Shown: positions 34,080 through 45,509 of the stretch, one piece after another
Position numbering within the stretch: the stretch's first letter is position 1
Layout: each line of letters begins with the position of its first letter
Assembly (NCBI GenBank): GCA_949287425.1
Contig: CASEGJ010000005.1
Coordinates: forward strand, 1-64,000
DNA length: 64,000 bases
Reading direction: 5' to 3'
Source: an uncultured Caryophanales bacterium
GTDB lineage: Bacteria > Bacillota_I > Bacilli_A > RFN20 > CAG-288
Notes under the pieces: model-generated
What the model was told of the DNA's origin: nothing
Databases searched by the model: none
Seen by the model: the letters and a program-made list of their open reading frames with translations, nothing else
Position numbers and translations under genes: made by a program

Positions 34080-34110
34080 AACTTACTAGCTATCTAGCTA
34101 GTAAGTTTTT
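34080..34110 (+). terminator. Terminator between convergent gmk and glgA
   Basis: AACTTACTAGCTA and TAGCTAGTAAGTT form a 13-bp perfect stem with a 2-base loop, followed by T on the plus strand. The stem includes the glgA stop codon (34090-34092). The minus side lacks a T run, so it mainly serves gmk but may also protect the glg mRNA end. Confidence 0.8.
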
Positions 34111-35517
34111 ATATAAATCAATGTATTCATTTACCTGTTTTGACCATGAAAAGTCTTCTTTCATGGCATTTTTAATCATATTATCTAATTCTTCAGAATG
34201 TCCATAATACATTTGAATAGCTAAACCTATTGAATAGTCAAAACCATTTTCATCCCAGCCATCAAAACTATAACCAGTGGCATTTGCTTTATTATCATAA
34301 TATGAAATAACTGTATCGTTTAATCCACCGACTTTTGATACGATAGGCAAACTACCATAATGCATAGCGATAATTTGGCCTAAACCGCATGGTTCAAATC
34401 TTGAAGGCATCAAGAAGAAATCACTTCCAGCATAAAGTAAGTGTGAAAGTTCTTCTGAATAACCTAAATAAATTTTCAAAGTGTTAGGATATTGATTACA
34501 ATAATCTTTTAATGTTTGTTCAATATTACTATCCCCTTGGCCAAGTAAAACTAACTTAGCTCCTTGACTAGCTAATTGTGGGATGTTTCTAACTATTCTT
34601 TCAACTCCCTTTTGAGAGGTTAATCTTGAAATAGCAGTAAATAAAGGACAATCTAATTCGTTAAGATTAAAGCCGAATTTTTCATAAATAGCTTTTTTAT
34701 TAGCTAACTTTCCTTCTTTATATGTTTTATAATCATACTCTTTAACAATATGAGAATCGTTATCTGGTGAGAAATTAGTATAATCGATACCATTAACTAT
34801 TCCAAACATATCAAATCTTCTGTTATTTAAAATATAACCTAAACCATTAAAGGCTTTAAAATCAGAAAGCAATTCATTAGCGTGAGTTCTAGAAACTGTT
34901 GAAATAGCATCAACGCTACAAATTCCACCCTTTAGTAAGGAAACTTGATCGTTAAATCTCAATAAACCTGATGAATAATAATATTCTTGTAAATCTAAAT
35001 ATGACCCAAGGTTATATGGATTAAAATAACCTTGGAATAAAGGGTTATGTATAGTTAATAAAGAACGGAATTTCAATCCAGCATCAGCTAATAACAAAGG
35101 CAAAATAGCAGTTTGCCAATCGTGAACATGAACAATATCAGGTTGAAGGTTAAATCTCAAAATAGCTTTTCTAACTGCTTGGCAGAAAAAAGAAAATCTT
35201 CTTTCATCATCGCCATATCCATAATAGCCATCTCTTTCAAAGAATTCTCCACATTCGATAAAATAGAAAGTGACATCATCTCTAACATCTTTTAAGATAT
35301 TACAACCAATCATTTGATTGCCCATAGCTACGCCAAATGAATCGACAAATTCATAATTATCTAAAACGCCTCTTTTAGTTTTTAAATAGAATGGCAAAAA
35401 GACATAGACTTTGTGCCTTTTTTTAACTAAAGCTTTAGATAGACCACTTACAACATCTCCTAATCCGCCAGTTTTAGAAAATGGTACAGATTCACTAGCA
35501 GCAAATACTATTTTCAT
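34090..35517 (-). CDS. glgA: Glycogen synthase GlgA
   Basis: A 475-residue GT5 enzyme that adds glucose from ADP-glucose to alpha-1,4-glucan. The ADP-glucose motif KTGGLGDVVSGLSKAL is at residues 15-30. LVHVHDWQTA-type sequence (DIVHVHDWQTAILPLLL) and the C-terminal domain with SRLTSQKGVERIVRN and PSRFEPCGLGQIIAMHYGSLP (retaining GT signature) are complete. The start is 1 base past the glgD stop, with GGAGAT inside glgD. Last gene of the glgC-glgD-glgA operon. Confidence 0.97.
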   Translation of the reverse strand: MKIVFAASESVPFSKTGGLGDVVSGLSKALVKKRHKVYVFLPFYLKTKRGVLDNYEFVDSFGVAMGNQMIGCNILKDVRDDVTFYFIECGEFFERDGYYGYGDDERRFSFFCQAVRKAILRFNLQPDIVHVHDWQTAILPLLLADAGLKFRSLLTIHNPLFQGYFNPYNLGSYLDLQEYYYSSGLLRFNDQVSLLKGGICSVDAISTVSRTHANELLSDFKAFNGLGYILNNRRFDMFGIVNGIDYTNFSPDNDSHIVKEYDYKTYKEGKLANKKAIYEKFGFNLNELDCPLFTAISRLTSQKGVERIVRNIPQLASQGAKLVLLGQGDSNIEQTLKDYCNQYPNTLKIYLGYSEELSHLLYAGSDFFLMPSRFEPCGLGQIIAMHYGSLPIVSKVGGLNDTVISYYDNKANATGYSFDGWDENGFDYSIGLAIQMYYGHSEELDNMIKNAMKEDFSWSKQVNEYIDLYKNLLAR

Positions 35518-35518
35518 A

Positions 35519-36640
35519 TTAGACTATATCTCCTCTTTTAATATAGATTACCTTTTCATCACTACCGACAATTTTCTTGGTGTGAATAATTCTAGCTTCT
35601 TTATCGCAAACGACATATTCTAAATGAGTAGATTCAGAAATATATGAACCAGATAAGATAATACTATCTTTAATATAAGCTCCTTCTTTAACAACTACAT
35701 CTCTTCCGATTATTGAATTGATAACAGTACCATCAATTCTACATCCATTAGCAATAAAAGATTGTTTAACAGAAGCGTGATCTCCATATTTTACAGGAGG
35801 AGTATCATATGATTTAGTATAAACTGGCCAACTTGAATCAAAATAAACTTTCATTATTTCTGGATTTAAAACTTCTTTAGAATAATCCAAATAATGTTTT
35901 AATGAATCAAAACAACGTAAATAACCATCAAATTTATAAGCATGAATAGGAATATCTTTATAAATCATAGCCAAAACGTCGTTTAAAGTATATAAAGATG
36001 AAGTTCTTTTTCCTAAATGAATTAAACCTTTCAAAACTTCTTTATCTATAATAGCAGTTTGCATATAAATGTTAGCATCATCACTTGTCGATAAATTTTT
36101 AGAAATATCTGTAACTATATTTTGATCGTTTACTTTAATTTTATATTCACCGATAAATGCTGATTTAGCGTTATCTACCTGTTTATAGAAAATAGAAATC
36201 TTGTTGTTATTTTTAATGTGTTCATCGATATATGGTCTAAAATCCATTTTGTAAATCATATGTGTAGGAGCGATTATACATACTTCTACATCATCAGGAA
36301 TAGATTTTAAAAACCAACTATTTTCAATTAAGTTATTGATATCGTGGTTATATGTAGGAGAAGTAGCATATGGTTCATCATATAAAATAGAAAGGCCACC
36401 TAATTTAGAGTTTTCATTATAAATATGACCATCTCCAATATGTTGAATGATAGAACGTAGATTTTTCTTAACTAAGACAGCCATTCTATCGATACCAGAA
36501 TTGGCAAAATTAGAAAGAGGAAAATCCATAAAAGCGTATCTTCCTAAAAAGGAAGTAGAAGCTAATGAACGTGTAGAATTAATTCCTTCACATTCAGGAC
36601 AATAATGCAAGTTTAAAATACCGACAGCTTTTGATGACAT
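35519..36640 (-). CDS. glgD: Glucose-1-phosphate adenylyltransferase regulatory subunit GlgD
   Basis: A 373-residue GlgC homologue without the catalytic GGxGxRL loop; its N-terminus is ILNLHYCPECEGINSTRSLA instead. MDFPLSNFANSGID and the C-terminal left-handed beta-helix hexapeptides (NSIIGRDVVVKEGAYIKDSIIL) are conserved. GlgD proteins of Bacillota form heterotetramers with GlgC and raise its activity. AAGGAGGAAG precedes the ATG, and it follows glgC by 14 bases. Confidence 0.96.
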   Translation of the reverse strand: MSSKAVGILNLHYCPECEGINSTRSLASTSFLGRYAFMDFPLSNFANSGIDRMAVLVKKNLRSIIQHIGDGHIYNENSKLGGLSILYDEPYATSPTYNHDINNLIENSWFLKSIPDDVEVCIIAPTHMIYKMDFRPYIDEHIKNNNKISIFYKQVDNAKSAFIGEYKIKVNDQNIVTDISKNLSTSDDANIYMQTAIIDKEVLKGLIHLGKRTSSLYTLNDVLAMIYKDIPIHAYKFDGYLRCFDSLKHYLDYSKEVLNPEIMKVYFDSSWPVYTKSYDTPPVKYGDHASVKQSFIANGCRIDGTVINSIIGRDVVVKEGAYIKDSIILSGSYISESTHLEYVVCDKEARIIHTKKIVGSDEKVIYIKRGDIV

Positions 36641-36654
36641 AATCTTCTTCCTCC

Positions 36655-37767
36655 TTAGTTATTAATTAACAATATTGGTTCATCTTCTTTACCAATATAT
36701 TCGCCTTCAACTTCAATATTTGGGCTTACAATAGCTCTTTTAATATGACTATGGGCTTTGATAGTAGTATTTGGCATAACTACGCAATCTTCAACAACAG
36801 CACCTTTTTCAATAGTAACACCATTAAAGATAACTGAATGTTTAACTTTACCAAAAATCATCGCGCCTTGATTGGCCATAGAATCGGAAATCTCACCATT
36901 TTTACCTAAAAAGCAAGGTGATGATAAATTATCTTCTGACATTATACGATTGGCATTTTCATAGATATTAAGTTCACATTTATCATCTAATAAATCCATA
37001 TTAGCTTCCCAAAGTGAATCGATAGTACCGACATCTTTCCAATAGCCTTTAAATGGATAAGCGTATAATCTCTTTTTAGATTCTAACATGCTTGGAATAA
37101 TATTTTTACCAAAGTCATTTTCAGATTCAGGGTTTTTATGATCTTTAATAAGCTCATTTCTTAACATTTTGTAATTAAAAATGTAAATACCCATACTAGC
37201 TAAAGTTGATTCAGGGTTTTTAGGTTTTTCAGTAAAAGATTCAATTTTATAATTTTCATCTGTTTTCATAATACCGAATCTTTTAGCTTCTTCTAAGCTA
37301 ACTTCAATACAGGCGACAGTTAAATCAGCACCTTTAGAAATATGGAAATTTAACATATCGTCATAATCCATCTTATAGATATGATCGCCAGATAAAATAA
37401 TTACATAATCTGGATTTTCTTGTTCTAAAAAGTCTAAGTTTTGATAAATAGCATCAGCTGTACCATTGTACCAAGATGCTCCTTCTTCAGTTTGTTTAGG
37501 AGTTAAAGCAACAGTCAGCGACTTTTTACCATCGATACCCCAGTTGATACCATTTGATACATAAGTATTCAAAGGTGTTGATTCATACTGAGTAAGTACA
37601 CCAACTGTATCGATTCCCGAATTAGCACAGTTAGAAAGTGGGAAATCAATAATCCTGTACTTTCCTCCAAAATAAACCGCAGGTTTTGCTAATTTTTTAG
37701 TAAGAGATTTTAATCTAGTTCCCTTACCACCTGCTAATAGCATAGCTACCATCTTTCCTTTTGCCAT
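36655..37767 (-). CDS. glgC: Glucose-1-phosphate adenylyltransferase GlgC
   Basis: A 370-residue catalytic subunit making ADP-glucose from ATP and glucose-1-phosphate, the committed step of glycogen synthesis. [21 protein letters not shown] is the nucleotide loop, [12 protein letters not shown] and [16 protein letters not shown] carry the catalytic Asp, and [10 protein letters not shown] is the sugar-phosphate segment. The C-terminal beta-helix holds [29 protein letters not shown] precedes the ATG. It directly precedes glgD. Confidence 0.98.
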
Positions 37768-37785: not shown

Positions 37786-38919
37786 TTAATATGTCAATAT
37801 GCCATTTCCCTTTTCCTCAGGGGCAAAATTAACCTCACCGTTAAGATTTGTCACTATATTAGTGACACCTTGAATAAGTCCAATTAAAGCTTCAACTTGC
37901 TTTTCTAAAATCTGATCGTTAAGTTTATCAGCTAACTTTTTAGTTAATTTAAATTTAAAACCTTCTAATAAAACAATTAATTTGTCTTCTTTAATAGTAA
38001 TTGAAATATCGGTCTTAACATAAAATGAAAGTTCACAAATAGCATCAGCGACTTTTTTATTGACGATTAAATAGATTTCTGGACCTAAAGTTGTATAACA
38101 AATAAAGTTAGCGAGATTAGATATTCCATCAAAACCATATCTATTTATTTTTAAGCCATCATATCTATCTATTTTAGGCTCACCATATGTTCTAAATTGA
38201 ATATAAGCGTGAGTTTTAACTCTCGTTAAAGAAGTAACAATCAATAAGCCATCAATATTTTTGTTCTCGTAATTTTCCAATTCATATTGATACATTTTTA
38301 AATCAGCTAAAGAGGTATTAGCTTGATAACTTGAAACTAGATTTGGAGAATAAAAATCCAAATCTTTTAAATACGATATATTGTCATTTAATTCATCTTC
38401 TTTAACATCAATTTGATTAAAAATAACGCCGTTAACTTTCGCTTCCATAACTAAACTAGAAAAATACTTTTCTTGAAAAATAGCACTTTGCTTCTTCATA
38501 TAGAAAAAATTGAAAGTGAAATAACTAATTATGCATAAAATAACAATTCCAACTAACAATAAAAACCTCTCTAAACTCGATATGTAAGAAAAATCAAACA
38601 AATTTGCTTCAATAGGAAAATACGGCCAAAATTCCAAGCTTGAAACAGAATTAAAAAAGCCGTTAAACCAATTGTAATAAGAATGGCCTAAACAATAGAT
38701 GAAAATATATAAAAAATATATGAAAAATATACCAAAAGACAATAAATAGGCATATAAATGAGATTTAAATCTCATTTTTCTTTGTAGTTTTACTAGATTA
38801 TCAGATTCAGAGATAACTGTTTTAGCCATACCTAATAAATTTTCTATATTTCTATTATACACTTTAAAGCCCTTACAAAAAACATTTTTTTTAATAGAAT
38901 CGCTAGTAAAATTTACCAT
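37786..38919 (-). CDS. Two-span membrane protein, possibly DUF3137-like
   Basis: A 377-residue membrane protein heading the glycogen operon, 18 bases before glgC. Two spans lie at about residues 53-75 and 116-137 with a Phe/Tyr-rich outer loop between. The cytosolic C-terminal part (about 140-365) includes a GLLIVTSLTRVKTHAYIQF strand, DGISNLANFICYTTLGPEIYLIV and ISITIKEDKLIVLLEGFKF, an order that recalls DUF3137-type proteins; this is a tentative match by eye. A link to glycogen is only positional. No good ribosome site is seen before the ATG. The 150 bases upstream show no clear promoter. Confidence 0.6.
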   Translation of the reverse strand: MVNFTSDSIKKNVFCKGFKVYNRNIENLLGMAKTVISESDNLVKLQRKMRFKSHLYAYLLSFGIFFIYFLYIFIYCLGHSYYNWFNGFFNSVSSLEFWPYFPIEANLFDFSYISSLERFLLLVGIVILCIISYFTFNFFYMKKQSAIFQEKYFSSLVMEAKVNGVIFNQIDVKEDELNDNISYLKDLDFYSPNLVSSYQANTSLADLKMYQYELENYENKNIDGLLIVTSLTRVKTHAYIQFRTYGEPKIDRYDGLKINRYGFDGISNLANFICYTTLGPEIYLIVNKKVADAICELSFYVKTDISITIKEDKLIVLLEGFKFKLTKKLADKLNDQILEKQVEALIGLIQGVTNIVTNLNGEVNFAPEEKGNGILTY

Positions 38920-39013
38920 TTTAACAACTGCTAATTTGCAAATTTATAACACTTAATTATCTCAAATTGAAAATATGCGTTTTTTTAATTAAAAAAGCGT
39001 TATTTTACAATAA

Positions 39014-39058
39014 TAAAAAAGCTGATAAACCAATTTTAATACTCAGTTTTATCAGCTT
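39014..39058 (-). terminator. Intrinsic terminator of the jetA-jetB-jetC operon
   Basis: On the minus strand GCTGATAAAAC pairs with GTTTATCAGC (39056-39046 with 39030-39021, one bulged base), followed by six or more T. It lies 14 bases after the jetC stop. Confidence 0.85.
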
Positions 39059-39071
39059 TTATTAAATATTT

Positions 39072-42000
39072 TTACACGTTAATTTCTAAATTTGCTTTAG
39101 CTATAGTATTGTTATCTAATTTCTTTTTATCTTGATATCTATCGATTCTAGAACGGTTATGTTTAACATCGTGCATAACAACTAAAGTCAAATCGACTTC
39201 GTTAACTAAATCAACAACCTTTTCAGTAGGAGTAGATAAAATAACTTGTAAACCAAACGATCTTAATAAACTGACAGCTTCTTTAATTCTTGAACCATCC
39301 ATCTTTGAGAAAGCTTCATCGAAAATAACGAGTCTAATAGTATCAGAATGCTCATCGTTAGTTCTATATAATTGAGCGAAAGAAGCTAATATAGCGATGT
39401 AGAATGGAGTTTGAGTTTCACCACCAGATTGTCTTTTGAAAGTTCTTGCCAAACTAGATTCAGTATCAGAATTCCCTCTTTTGACCAATAAGTCAAATAC
39501 CAAATATGTTCTATAATCAGTAAATTTTTCAACGTTAGCAATTATTTGTTCTCTTTGATCGATAGAAGATGTTGTCGATTCAGAAATCATATTAAATAAG
39601 TTATTTAATACAGCGCCGTATTTTTCAAGATAAACATCTTCAGCATCACCGACATTTAATAACAAATCATCGGTAATCATATTGTAATATTCAATATAGT
39701 CTCTATTAGGTTCGACCAAGAAACGATATGAATCTCGACCGAATTTTACATCTTTTAAAGCTAAATTAAGTTCATCAATTTGAGTTTCAATAATCTTGAA
39801 TGAATTTCTAAGCTTGTAAATAAAATCATCCTTGAACTCTTTAATAGCCTTTTTATGTGCCACTTCGATTTGTTGAAGATAACTAGGTAATAAAACTGTA
39901 GTTAAATTATTTAATTCATTGTCAAAATCTTCATTTGAATCTTCTTTAGTAGTGTCGTAAGAAAGATGATAAGTAACAGTGTATTTACTTCTTAAATCAA
40001 TGAGCTTATCTTTACTTATCTTCATTCTGTTTTGAGTTTGAACATAAGTGATTCTAGCTTGTTCAGTAATCTTAGTTAAAGACATTGATTCAATAGCTTT
40101 TTCAAAGAAAGGACCATATTTTTCTTCAACTAAGCTAGGATCGTATTTTAATAATTTATCACCAGCAATAGTAACATAAGCGGATTTAGTAGGAATTAAA
40201 TCATCTTTTAAAGTCTTGTTAGTATTTTCTAAACCGCCTTGTTCAATCAAAAGCTTGTTTTTCTCTTCTTCTAAAGCCTTAATATCAGATTCAATTGATT
40301 TAATCTTATTATCATAAGAATTAACTTCACCTAAATCTCCTTCTTCTAACTGATTGTCAAGACGTTCAATTTCTTGATTGAAAGTATCAATTTGTTGTAA
40401 AGAAGAAAGATCAGAGACAAAAGTCTTAATTTCTGAAGAAGAAATAACTTCCAGAGTAGCGATAGCTTTAAAATAAGAATTTAAATCGTTATAAATATCT
40501 AATTTACGATTAAATTCATTTAAATCATCTTGTTTTTCAAAAGCTGATTCTTCAGATATTTTAGTGCCAAAAAACGGTGTTCTTTCTTTTAATGAGAAAG
40601 AAGCAAAATTCCTATAACCTGTTAAATTAGGTAATAAACCATTTCCAGATTCTCTAGCTTCTTGGAAAGTTTCACATTTTTGAACTCGACCTAACAAGAA
40701 ATTAGCATAAGCCCTTGCTCCTTTATTAGAAGTAACAATTTCTTCAGCGACAGAATTTTCTTCAGCTTTAAAGTTTCTAGCTATCAATCTTTGAGTATCA
40801 ACTAAGCTTAATCCATATAAATCGTATTGTCTAACTACTCTATCTAAAATTTTAGCACCATCGACATAATAATCTTCATTATTAATAAAGAAATTAAATT
40901 TTTGAGTATTTATATATGCTTCAATTGATTTAACCCATCTTTTAGTTTTAATATCGCATAAATCACAAAAGAAATCGATTCTAGCATCTGGATATTTTTG
41001 TCTCAATTCATCTTCAAAAGCAGCCTTAACTTGCAAAAGTTGATTAGAATAAGGCTTTTGGCCACTAGTTATCGCAAATAATTGGCTGTTAATTGCACCG
41101 ATTGAATCGTTTAAATCAGCGATAGTATCTTCTAAAATATGAACAAAACGCAAACTAGAAGAGTGCAAAGAAGACATTTCGGTTTGAAATTCATTTAACA
41201 AATTAACATCGATATCTTTTCTTTCAATTTGTTCAAGTAAGCTAGTATAAGTATTAGTAAATTCTATAGCGTCATTTTTAAACTTTTCTAATTCATCAGC
41301 TTCCCTATCAGTTAAAATACTTTCATCAAAATTATTTAATCTAACGTTAATGGCGTTTAAAGCTTCAGAATATTGTCTAATATATGATTTTAAAGTTAAA
41401 GCTAAAGAAGCGTAGTTATCTTGTAAAGTAGCAATCTTTTCTAAAACGACATTCTTTTTAGAAGAGATTGAAGAAGCTAATGAATAGCCTTGAGAACCGA
41501 CTTTTTTGGCTAAATATGATTCGGATTCAGATTTTAGTTCAGCAATTTGTTCATCTTTTTCAGCTAAAAGCTTTGAAATTTCAATAATTCTAAGATTGTT
41601 TTCATCTAATCTTTTCTTATATGATTCTAAATCTCTTTTAGCAGATTCAAAATTAGCTCTATCGACAACATAATCCGCTAATCCCAAATTCGATTTAATA
41701 TTTTGATAGTTATTATAAGCTTCTTGAATAGCTTTTAAAGAATCAATTTTAGTTTGAATCTTTTTGGCTTCAATTTCTAATAACTTATACTGCTCAATAT
41801 TAGTCTGCATAGAAGTAATATCGACCTTATGAGGTAGATCACAGACAAATTCAGTAATAAAAGACGAAATATTAGTAAATGGTGTAAAAGAAACAGCATT
41901 TTTAAACAAAGAGAAAAACTTATCAGGTAAATCGCCTAATATCTCTTTTAAAAAGGCTTTATATGCAGTATTTGTATCGAAGAATTTATAATCTTCAGTC

Positions 42001-42503
42001 TTGTAATTAGCTTGGAAGAAATTCGATAGTTCTTTATATGACATCGGTCTAATTAAAGACTTATTATCACTATTAGAAGAATTGGAAAAATTATTTTCAG
42101 GAAATTTATCGTTTAAATAGAAAAATCTATGTTCTTCTTTATCATCTTCATAACAATCAAAGACGATACCTAAACTGAAAGTAGAATCTTTGCTATCGTC
42201 GTAAAATTGCATAGCAATATACGATGAAAATCTACCAGGTCTAAGAGTCATAACTTGCCCTTGGCTAGTTTCACCTAATTCGCAGCGTAAATATCCACGT
42301 AAAGTTCTACCTGTTCTTTCATTAGCTGCCTTATTGAAATTTCTACCTGAAGTATCAGCTAATAAAAGGACTTGCATAGCATCGATAATAGTTGATTTAC
42401 CAGTACCATTAGAGCCAGTTAAGAAAGTAATTGGTTTAATTTCAACAGTATCGTTAAAAAACAAATGCCAGTTAATTAATCTAAGCTTATTTAATATTTT
42501 CAT
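39072..42503 (-). CDS. jetC: SMC/MukB-like ATPase, Wadjet JetC
   Basis: A 1143-residue SMC-type ATPase. The head has LINWHLFF, Walker A GSNGTGKS (30-37) and the NKAANERTGRTLRGYLRCELGE block of JetC/MksB proteins. Two coiled-coil arms (about 240-470 and 690-960) flank a hinge. The C-terminal head has signature SGGETQTPFYIAILASFA (about 1026) and Walker B IRLVIFDEAFSKMD, with the catalytic Glu. In Wadjet, JetABC extrudes DNA loops and JetD cuts small circular DNA. Here the operon is jetA-jetB-jetC with a 4-base overlap to jetB, and no JetD (Toprim/DUF2220) gene lies on either side. All catalytic residues look intact. Confidence 0.93.
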   Translation of the reverse strand: MKILNKLRLINWHLFFNDTVEIKPITFLTGSNGTGKSTIIDAMQVLLLADTSGRNFNKAANERTGRTLRGYLRCELGETSQGQVMTLRPGRFSSYIAMQFYDDSKDSTFSLGIVFDCYEDDKEEHRFFYLNDKFPENNFSNSSNSDNKSLIRPMSYKELSNFFQANYKTEDYKFFDTNTAYKAFLKEILGDLPDKFFSLFKNAVSFTPFTNISSFITEFVCDLPHKVDITSMQTNIEQYKLLEIEAKKIQTKIDSLKAIQEAYNNYQNIKSNLGLADYVVDRANFESAKRDLESYKKRLDENNLRIIEISKLLAEKDEQIAELKSESESYLAKKVGSQGYSLASSISSKKNVVLEKIATLQDNYASLALTLKSYIRQYSEALNAINVRLNNFDESILTDREADELEKFKNDAIEFTNTYTSLLEQIERKDIDVNLLNEFQTEMSSLHSSSLRFVHILEDTIADLNDSIGAINSQLFAITSGQKPYSNQLLQVKAAFEDELRQKYPDARIDFFCDLCDIKTKRWVKSIEAYINTQKFNFFINNEDYYVDGAKILDRVVRQYDLYGLSLVDTQRLIARNFKAEENSVAEEIVTSNKGARAYANFLLGRVQKCETFQEARESGNGLLPNLTGYRNFASFSLKERTPFFGTKISEESAFEKQDDLNEFNRKLDIYNDLNSYFKAIATLEVISSSEIKTFVSDLSSLQQIDTFNQEIERLDNQLEEGDLGEVNSYDNKIKSIESDIKALEEEKNKLLIEQGGLENTNKTLKDDLIPTKSAYVTIAGDKLLKYDPSLVEEKYGPFFEKAIESMSLTKITEQARITYVQTQNRMKISKDKLIDLRSKYTVTYHLSYDTTKEDSNEDFDNELNNLTTVLLPSYLQQIEVAHKKAIKEFKDDFIYKLRNSFKIIETQIDELNLALKDVKFGRDSYRFLVEPNRDYIEYYNMITDDLLLNVGDAEDVYLEKYGAVLNNLFNMISESTTSSIDQREQIIANVEKFTDYRTYLVFDLLVKRGNSDTESSLARTFKRQSGGETQTPFYIAILASFAQLYRTNDEHSDTIRLVIFDEAFSKMDGSRIKEAVSLLRSFGLQVILSTPTEKVVDLVNEVDLTLVVMHDVKHNRSRIDRYQDKKKLDNNTIAKANLEINV

Positions 42504-43147
42504 AACATTTCTCCTTTATTAACATCAAATGGAGTATCTGCAACTGGAGCATTAGATGTTAAAGTTTCATATAGACTATTTAATCTAGCATTAGAAATAG
42601 CATATCTAATTGAAGGTAAGATATCAAAAGAATAGCTGACATCAGAAAAACTTCCCCTTCTAATAGCGATGATATTATAACTAGACAACGTTCTTAAACC
42701 CGCTTGAATAGTAACAGCGGAAATTCTTCTATTGACAGTTGATAAAGAAAGCTCTTTTAAAAGAGACTTTAGAGCTATTGAATCAATAGTGACTTCATTT
42801 GAAGTGGGATTTGAACCTAACTTATCTTCGTAGTAACTTCTTAAAGCGTAAATTAACAAAGTAGTTACACCATCGATTCTTATTTTATTAACATCAAAAC
42901 TAGATGAAGTAAATATAACCCCATTATCATCATCTTTAGTAACTTCAATACCAGCAAAATCTAAATAAGAAGTTATTAAATCAAAATGACGTTCAATAAA
43001 AAGATAATTAGGATTAATTTTAAAAGTGTTAGTAGGCTTATCAAAACTTCTTCTAACTATAAAACAGTGATATAACAAATTAGAAAGAACTTCTTGAAAC
43101 TGATTTTGCTCTCCTCTAGAAAGCTTTTCATATTCTTCTTCAAACAT
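42500..43147 (-). CDS. jetB: Wadjet JetB / MukE-like subunit (DUF4194 family)
   Basis: A 215-residue DUF4194-type protein. Two winged-helix domains are suggested by LLYHCFIVRRSFD at the start and LLKELSLSTVNRRISAVTIQAGLRTLSSYNIIAIRRGSF toward the end. Such subunits bind the kleisin JetA and DNA in MukBEF-like complexes. It overlaps jetA by one base (TAATG, with GGGAGG upstream) and jetC by four (ATGA), so the three are made together. Confidence 0.88.
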   Translation of the reverse strand: MFEEEYEKLSRGEQNQFQEVLSNLLYHCFIVRRSFDKPTNTFKINPNYLFIERHFDLITSYLDFAGIEVTKDDDNGVIFTSSSFDVNKIRIDGVTTLLIYALRSYYEDKLGSNPTSNEVTIDSIALKSLLKELSLSTVNRRISAVTIQAGLRTLSSYNIIAIRRGSFSDVSYSFDILPSIRYAISNARLNSLYETLTSNAPVADTPFDVNKGEML

Positions 43148-44610
43148 TAATATTTTCCTCCCTTTCTAGTGAACTTGTAATTTGGAACTATAAACTTGTT
43201 ATTTATAAAAGTTTCATCTAGACGTTCAATAGAATAAAACATATCACCAAATTGTGCTCTGACAGTAGCTAAGATCAATAAAATCATATCGTCTAAAGAT
43301 TCTAATTTTATGTCTTTAGTTGTTATAACTTTCTCATTGTTAAAGTTTTTAAGCATAAATTCATTGATAGAATCTTGAGAAAACTTAGTAACTTCAGTTT
43401 CTATATAATTAGCTAAATCGCTATCTTCACCAAAAAGTTCATCTTCCAATGCTAGTGGTTCAACTTCTTCACGAGCTTCACGTTTAAATGGCATAGTTAG
43501 TGAATCAGAACTAACAAAGCCTTGTCTATATAAACAAACAGTATCGCTAGCTTGATTAACAATCCCGATATTAGTGTAATCGCCTTTATAATCTAAAGGT
43601 AAACTATCTAACGCTTTAGCCATTGCCAATATAACAGTATCTAATTTACCTTTGATAGACTTATCGGAATTAGATAAATAATTGACTTTCTTTTGAACTG
43701 CTTGAGTATATTTAGCATTAGCTTTATCTATCTCGTTAAACGACTCATTCAATTTGTTATAGATATCTATAGTCTGCTGAATCATCCTATTAACGATATC
43801 GAAGACTTCACTTGTTTTAGTTTTGGCATAGCTAGGATCATATTTAGCTTGACTAACTAACTTAGCCATGATTCTTTTATCTTTTTGCCATCTAGTTAAA
43901 ATTTTAATTACAGGCAAAGCGTATAAGCCTAAAGAATCGTAAGTTTTCATCGGGTGATATATCTTATCACCAACTTGCTTTTTAAAAATATCAAAATGCT
44001 GTTTTAAAGCTTCATTAGGATCAAAAACACTAGTTAAATTATGTCCAAACACGCAAATAGAATGATGAAGTAAAGTGACATTTAATTCAAGCTCATCGGC
44101 GTTTTTTCTAGCTGAGAGTAAAGAACGAAACATATAATCATCTTCTTTTTCATCTTCTAACGATAATTCAGAATAAGTTTGATGAACTAAAGGAACATAT
44201 AATGCGGTATCTTGAGAAAGTTCATCAATTAGCTGCATCATTTTAATTGAATAACTAGGTAAATAAAGCATGTCAGCGTTAGTTACTGGATCTTTTTCAA
44301 GATCAATCCAACCTGTAGCACATAACTTTCTAAAAATGTAATTCGTTTTACCATTTATTGTTTCAATATCTGTTTCGACAATATCATCATCACTAGAAGA
44401 ATCATCTAGTCTATCTAAATTAACATCAAACAAAGACATAATCTGATCACAATGGCTTCTTAACATGTTTATATAATCAGATTTATGAATGTTAGTCTTA
44501 TAAACTTTTAAACACTGGTATAAAGTTATTAACGCATAAGAATAAACAGCTTTATATTTTCTCGACAATACAGAAAAGAAATTTTCTGGAATTTTATCAA
44601 ATAGATTCAC
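43147..44610 (-). CDS. jetA: Wadjet JetA / MukF-like kleisin
   Basis: A 487-residue protein starting MNLFDKIPENFFSVLSRKYKAVYSYAL, the characteristic JetA opening. The N-terminal winged-helix region is followed by a helical middle segment (about 200-330) and a C-terminal winged helix, as expected for a kleisin that bridges the SMC heads. It starts with GTG (44608-44610); GGAG lies 11 bases upstream. First gene of the operon with its own consensus promoter. Confidence 0.88.
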   Translation of the reverse strand: MNLFDKIPENFFSVLSRKYKAVYSYALITLYQCLKVYKTNIHKSDYINMLRSHCDQIMSLFDVNLDRLDDSSSDDDIVETDIETINGKTNYIFRKLCATGWIDLEKDPVTNADMLYLPSYSIKMMQLIDELSQDTALYVPLVHQTYSELSLEDEKEDDYMFRSLLSARKNADELELNVTLLHHSICVFGHNLTSVFDPNEALKQHFDIFKKQVGDKIYHPMKTYDSLGLYALPVIKILTRWQKDKRIMAKLVSQAKYDPSYAKTKTSEVFDIVNRMIQQTIDIYNKLNESFNEIDKANAKYTQAVQKKVNYLSNSDKSIKGKLDTVILAMAKALDSLPLDYKGDYTNIGIVNQASDTVCLYRQGFVSSDSLTMPFKREAREEVEPLALEDELFGEDSDLANYIETEVTKFSQDSINEFMLKNFNNEKVITTKDIKLESLDDMILLILATVRAQFGDMFYSIERLDETFINNKFIVPNYKFTRKGGKY

Positions 44611-44649
44611 TTAATTTTGTTCTCCAAAGATTTGTTTTTACACAAAAAT

Positions 44650-44678
44650 ATTATATGTTTAAATGATTTTTTTTACAA
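44650..44678 (-). promoter_or_regulatory. Promoter of the jetABC operon
   Basis: On the minus strand TTGTAA (44673-44678) and a perfect TATAAT (44650-44655) with a 17-base spacer, 40 bases before jetA. No inverted repeat that could be an operator was found next to it. Confidence 0.75.
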
Positions 44679-44717: not shown

Positions 44718-45509
44718 TTATATTCCAGCAATATCGAAATTATTTTTTGAATTTCTATAGGAATATTTTAAAACTAGCTCTTTATCTATTTGACGCAACC
44801 TGTCAACTTCATTAGCTATCTTATCTTCGATAATTTTAGAAAGTTCAATGGTAGTTAAACCTTTAAATTCACTAGGATAAATAGGGTTCAAAAATGATAT
44901 TTGGATAGGATATTTTTTCATTTTGAGCTTTTTATCTAAAACTCTAAATCCACCATATATAGCGACTAGCTGAATAGGCTTATTAGAATTGAAAGCCGGT
45001 TTTAAAGAACCAGGTTTAAATTCATTTAATGTATGTAAACCATCTTTAGAACGAGTCCCTTCTGGGAAAATAACGACACTTTGTTCTCCCTTTTTTAATA
45101 TAGAAGTAACTTGCATCAAACACCTTATTTCAGAACGAAAATCTTTTCTATCCATAAATATACCATCGATGGCCTTTAAAACTTTTCTAACATATGGAAA
45201 TTTCAAAACTTCAATCTTGGATAAAAACGTCAATGGTTTTTCAATTACCGCTAAAAAGCTCAAAGCATCCATATTAGATTGATGGTTACAAATAAATAAG
45301 CAGTTAGAATCTTGAATTAAGTTTTCTTTATTATTAACGATAAATAGACAATCTAGCTTTTCACAAACCTTAACGATTAAATCGTGAGAATAATTATATC
45401 TATCTATTAAACTGAATTCATCTTTATGTTTATTTATTTTCGTCAAAAATCGCGATTGAGATAAAACTAAATAACCAGCCTTACAAACTATTTTAAAATA
45501 CTTAAACAT
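44718..45509 (-). CDS. plsC: 1-acyl-sn-glycerol-3-phosphate acyltransferase (PlsC-like)
   Basis: A 263-residue membrane-associated acyltransferase that forms phosphatidic acid. The HX4D active site is ICNHQSNMDALSFLAV, and the substrate motif is VVIFPEGTRSKDGLHTLNEFKPGSLKPAF. IDGIFMDRKDFR is the second conserved block. AGGAGAAAG precedes the ATG. It lies 9 bases after the pullulanase gene at the end of the ftsK operon. Confidence 0.93.
   Translation of the reverse strand: MFKYFKIVCKAGYLVLSQSRFLTKINKHKDEFSLIDRYNYSHDLIVKVCEKLDCLFIVNNKENLIQDSNCLFICNHQSNMDALSFLAVIEKPLTFLSKIEVLKFPYVRKVLKAIDGIFMDRKDFRSEIRCLMQVTSILKKGEQSVVIFPEGTRSKDGLHTLNEFKPGSLKPAFNSNKPIQLVAIYGGFRVLDKKLKMKKYPIQISFLNPIYPSEFKGLTTIELSKIIEDKIANEVDRLRQIDKELVLKYSYRNSKNNFDIAGI

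Follow-up and report, generated by a model that had tools for sequence, protein, structure and literature searches.

What does the motor of a Wadjet system do when it is found without its nuclease and among housekeeping genes? This question is raised by the jetA-jetB-jetC operon of an uncultured Caryophanales bacterium (order RFN20, family CAG-288), which lies on contig CASEGJ010000005.1 in a stretch of 64,000 nucleotides that we analysed as a whole (the window). Wadjet type I systems, also known as EptABCD or MksBEFG, are made of JetABCD. An earlier, sequence-only reading of the window had proposed that jetD might be located elsewhere in the genome, that another nuclease might have been recruited, or that the complex might be a condensin acting on the chromosome, as MksBEF-like systems would. 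Of these three options, the last fits best, because the operon is near-universal, single-copy and syntenic and encodes the sole SMC-type complex of the order. JetABC is thus likely to be the motor of a type I Wadjet, devoid of JetD and fixed in the chromosome, that stands in place of Smc-ScpAB.

A Type I Wadjet Operon without jetD

The three genes overlap as first described, jetA and jetB by 1 base and jetB and jetC by 4 bases, and both Pfam and PADLOC models identify their products as Wadjet type I components (Table 1). The ATPase motifs of JetC, said to be intact, are indeed complete (Walker A GSNGTGKST, signature SGGE, Walker B LVIFDEAF) and invariant across the alignment of the order, while a profile match reveals the SMC hinge in JetC orthologues. 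In the PDB, the top matches of JetC are the JetC chains 9qxt/8as8, with MukB far weaker. JetA and JetB have no PDB match by sequence alone, but fold comparison did return matches: the AlphaFold model of JetB (pLDDT 85) retrieves MukE and JetB chains, and that of JetA (pLDDT 79, pTM 0.40) is best matched by MukF and JetA chains, albeit with low TM-scores. Altogether, the operon has the make-up of MukBEF and MksBEF, i.e., an SMC protein, a kleisin and a KITE subunit, with the nuclease gene absent.

Regarding the flanks, the glycogen operon (downstream) and plsC (upstream) are confirmed. The operon was also thought to extend from one consensus promoter to one terminator: the terminator is well supported, whereas the promoter is not, since promoter-like sites are not above chance in this AT-rich region (32 observed vs. 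34.7 in shuffled sequence), even though the site exists.

Table 1. Features of the jetABC locus, ordered by position in the window.
Feature	Position	Strand	Description
glgC, glgD, glgA	34090..37767	(-)	Conserved downstream neighbours; mark the housekeeping locus; context, outside the complex
Predicted membrane protein	37786..38919	(-)	377 aa, no Pfam match; frequent immediate 3' neighbour of jetC in the order
Terminator hairpin	39011..39064	(-)	U-rich tail, directly 3' of jetC; -15.5 kcal/mol, z -4.4
jetC, SMC-type ATPase	39072..42503	(-)	1143 aa; coiled coils and hinge; PADLOC JetC1 1019 bits
jetB, KITE subunit (MukE/JetB-like)	42500..43147	(-)	215 aa; PF13835 (DUF4194) 2.6e-17; PADLOC JetB1 1e-63
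jetA, kleisin (MukF/JetA-like)	43147..44610	(-)	487 aa, GTG start; PF18982 (JetA, DUF5716) 6.6e-70; PADLOC JetA1 4.6e-98
Promoter-like site	44650..44678	(-)	TTGTAA-17-TATAAT, 5' of jetA; 10/12 consensus matches
plsC-like acyltransferase	44718..45509	(-)	Upstream neighbour; context

Searches for the Toprim domain of JetD (JetD_C, PF09983) and for DUF3322 (PF11795) returned nothing, either near the operon, as already noticed from the sequence, or in the whole 1.34-Mb genome (94% complete), so that a JetD encoded elsewhere is ruled out as far as the assembly allows. Recruitment of another nuclease fares no better, as no conserved nuclease is found behind the operon in relatives. More generally, no family-wide candidate for a replacement effector emerged, the commonest extra neighbour behind jetC being the 377-aa membrane protein, whose homologues occupy this position in 22 loci of families f1, f3 and f5. 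This gene stays at jetC even where the glg genes have been lost (L044, L081).

Across the 59 genomes of the order, JetD exceeds the cut-off in three (G055, G053 and G048), and never adjoins the main operon. The JetD of G055 is part of a complete second, distant Wadjet that coexists with the JetD-less operon, while that of G048 is truncated and devoid of jetABC. In G053 (L048:6091-7731), also without jetABC, a JetD-like protein starts with a recombinase-like stretch, as if what is left of a Wadjet had been joined to a mobile element. All three JetDs reached these genomes separately and do not belong with the core operon. Finally, in a comparison made for a loss of JetD-contact residues in JetA, 21 columns were conserved only in JetD-linked proteins and 1 showed the reverse, but JetB and JetC share this asymmetry and the JetD-less set is the more divergent.

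Conservation of jetABC across the Order RFN20

The distribution of the operon was examined across 59 genomes of the GTDB order RFN20, whose members are uncultured gut bacteria, most of the genomes compared being MAGs. This order includes Candidatus Enterosoma (UBA7642), which belongs to the same family CAG-288 (PMC8035907), a family in which both peptidoglycan and sporulation are predicted to be missing (PMC10868615). JetC was found in 50/59 genomes, nearly always in single copy, with JetA and JetB alongside wherever the contig was long enough. It is present in all 47 genomes of families f1, f2, f3, f4, f6 and f8 and in 3/11 genomes of f5, and is absent from the single f7 genome (69% complete). 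Moreover, f1, f3 and f5 share the gene order jetABC-glgC-glgD-glgA, which recurs at about 50 loci. jetABC is a core gene set of the order RFN20.

An operon that is found almost universally, in single copy, in six families and that occupies a fixed housekeeping locus is unlike a defence system. JetABC could still be one if an unlinked and unrelated nuclease had replaced JetD, considering that known Wadjet JetABC senses circular DNA (PMC10586767) and that unlinked partners are invisible to synteny. Yet, no conserved extra gene travels with the operon throughout the order, and G055 maintains its separate Wadjet, complete with its own JetD, next to the JetD-less operon, so that we regard continued plasmid defence as improbable.

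Absence of Smc-ScpAB

ScpA (PF02616) is above the cut-off in none of the 59 genomes of the order, including the genome under study. The SMC hinge (PF06470) matches in 12 of them, but a comparison of coordinates locates all 12 matches inside JetC ORFs. The searches themselves are effective, as they are positive in 9–10 of 14 control genomes; of the 247 genomes of the class, about half are matched by the ScpA and hinge models, the very fast-evolving Mycoplasma-like families f11 and f22 among them. Smc-ScpAB being absent, the order is left with JetABC as its only SMC-type complex. Among JetC carriers, JetD and Smc status appear to be associated (7/11 vs. 3/57; Fisher p 3e-5), a figure obtained among the matches listed and uncorrected for kinship.

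These results bear on two other interpretations. On the one hand, the motor, which is intact, might restrain plasmids without cutting them, by compacting and silencing them in the way proposed for Smc5/6 and viral circles, Smc5/6 silencing being described in a review (PMC10586767). This could coexist with a condensin role, but leaves the order-wide replacement of Smc-ScpAB unexplained, and we consider it an unlikely account of the operon. On the other hand, Smc-ScpAB might be present but missed because of gaps or divergence, in which case JetABC would be a second condensin, like MksBEF in Pseudomonas aeruginosa. The assemblies are incomplete, as is the genome under study, but neither ScpA nor a hinge outside JetC appears even in the 38 genomes of the order that are at least 90% complete, and the same models do detect Smc and ScpA in f11 and f22, which makes an overlooked Smc-ScpAB very improbable.

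ParB is the usual loader of Smc. ParB matches were obtained in 41/59 genomes of the order, 30 of them above the cut-off; one homologue just below it (G000:C4:460038-460457; 56 bits for a cut-off of 58) has been kept though Smc is absent. Since ParB is retained in most genomes, it may work with another partner or serve another function.

The complex can also be lost, as indicated by 8 of the 11 sampled f5 genomes, where JetC and all other SMC complexes sought here are undetected. Similarly, ScpA, the SMC hinge and JetC are all undetected in families f12, f19 and f23 of the class, which implies that the loss of Smc requires no substitution by JetABC. These three families and most of f5 (e.g., G026, G033, G043) are candidate SMC-complex-free bacteria. 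A MukB-like protein of 942 aa in G170 (f19) was set aside, as it lies on a 7.4-kb contig and possibly represents contamination.

Origin of the Operon and Selection

In JetC trees, the RFN20 proteins adjoin clostridial JetCs (Caldicoprobacter, Thermoclostridium, Desulfosporosinus and others), whose operons have jetD at +1, directly behind jetC, and neighbour genes unrelated to those of the RFN20 locus. RFN20 JetCs form order-spanning JetD-less clades beside, and not within, the jetD-linked clostridial clade. Thus, neither of the two results named beforehand as evidence against a JetD-independent complex, i.e., a jetD elsewhere in the genome or a JetC inside a jetD-linked clade, was observed. 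The best tree does not unite the RFN20 JetCs in a single clade, yet a tree that does is not significantly worse (AU test, p 0.067), so that jetD may have been lost once or twice. Family groups broadly agree between JetC and RpoB (Mantel r 0.54, p 0.0006), although the branching order of f1, f3 and f5 is not settled. The JetC relatives in plasmid records are all distant, with identities of 27% at most.

Two deviating cases deserve mention. In the Clostridium-type MAGs L132, L135, L136 and L138, jetC is intact but the jetD that follows it is broken up into two to four ORFs. In genus g30 of f5 (L056, L174, L175), JetABC, again without JetD, is highly divergent and clusters with a different JetC lineage, one that is linked to JetD; it was possibly re-acquired once the original operon had been lost.

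The dN/dS ratios of jetA, jetB and jetC, computed on close pairs, are about 0.02–0.11, which corresponds to strong purifying selection, and the ATPase motifs are intact in all full JetD-less proteins examined; the sequence-only reading was right to favour a functional complex over a decaying one. A Wadjet remnant drifting after the loss of jetD, to which the missing gene and the broken jetD of related Clostridium MAGs might point, is scarcely credible in view of full-length genes at about 40% identity across several families, and is refuted by the selection data. Considering the absence of Smc-ScpAB, the fixed JetD-less operon and the jetD-linked clostridial relatives together, a Wadjet motor has apparently replaced Smc-ScpAB.

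Parallel Cases in the Class

Families f10, f16, f26, f27 and f28 of the class likewise lack ScpA and the Smc hinge, and have JetABC without JetD. In the RpoB tree, they group with f12, f19, f21 and f23 in a second clade, which Smc-positive families separate from RFN20, so that Smc-ScpAB was lost at least twice. The JetCs of the five JetABC-bearing families are also placed elsewhere in the JetC tree than those of RFN20. Two of the f16 genomes (1,496,992 and 1,554,229 long) are presumably those of Acholeplasma laidlawii PG-8A and A. palmae, respectively. In f14 (L168, G114), Smc-ScpAB, a complete JetABCD and an extra JetD-less JetABC are found in one genome, a coexistence that is a possible intermediate state.

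On balance, we favour a scenario in which RFN20 and the Acholeplasmatales group each turned a Wadjet motor into their sole chromosomal condensin, independently of one another and losing JetD and Smc-ScpAB in the process, which makes at least two such events. Genus g30 of f5 may be a third, divergent case, and some sister lineages do without any SMC complex.

Relation to Known Systems and Proposed Role

The RFN20 operon resembles Wadjet type I in its JetA, JetB and JetC families, its gene order and overlaps and its JetC subfamily, and its nearest relatives are complete clostridial jetABCD operons. It differs by the lack of jetD, both in the operon and in the genome, by its near-universal occurrence at a fixed housekeeping locus and by the absence of Smc-ScpAB, the role of which would be the same as that proposed here for JetABC. 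In Pseudomonas, MksBEF works beside Smc-ScpAB, whereas the JetABC of RFN20, besides belonging to a different lineage, has no other SMC complex at its side. MukBEF of Enterobacteria likewise took over from Smc-ScpAB, and is a divergent complex of SMC, kleisin and KITE subunits (PMC10586767). The predicted structures of JetA and JetB match MukF and MukE, but JetC has much more in common with Wadjet JetC than with MukB, and ParB is mostly retained in RFN20. Descent from the lineage of MukB or of P. aeruginosa MksB is not observed, the best matches of JetC being to JetC1, and the likeness thus concerns the proposed working, not membership. Within the PMC papers searched, no earlier report of Acholeplasma condensins or JetD-less Wadjets was found beyond a remark on Pseudomonas in a review.

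From the absence of Smc-ScpAB and the near-universal presence of JetABC, we infer that this complex loads on the chromosome, extrudes loops and takes part in segregation. JetC dimers would be joined at the hinge and closed by the kleisin JetA, which would carry JetB dimers. Once loaded on the chromosome, JetABC would extrude DNA loops at the expense of ATP, a process expected to compact the chromosome and to help separate it, in the manner of enterobacterial MukBEF. As JetD is not there to dock, extrusion would finish or stall without cleavage, hence a motor that should be safe on the cell's own DNA.

An order with a JetD-less motor as its only SMC complex represents a natural experiment and, if the identity of Acholeplasma laidlawii is true, a cultivable organism makes the question directly testable. 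In the meantime, defence-annotation tools will label such operons as Wadjet, though they are probably housekeeping: in RFN20, what was once a weapon now probably serves to organise the chromosome of the bacterium itself.
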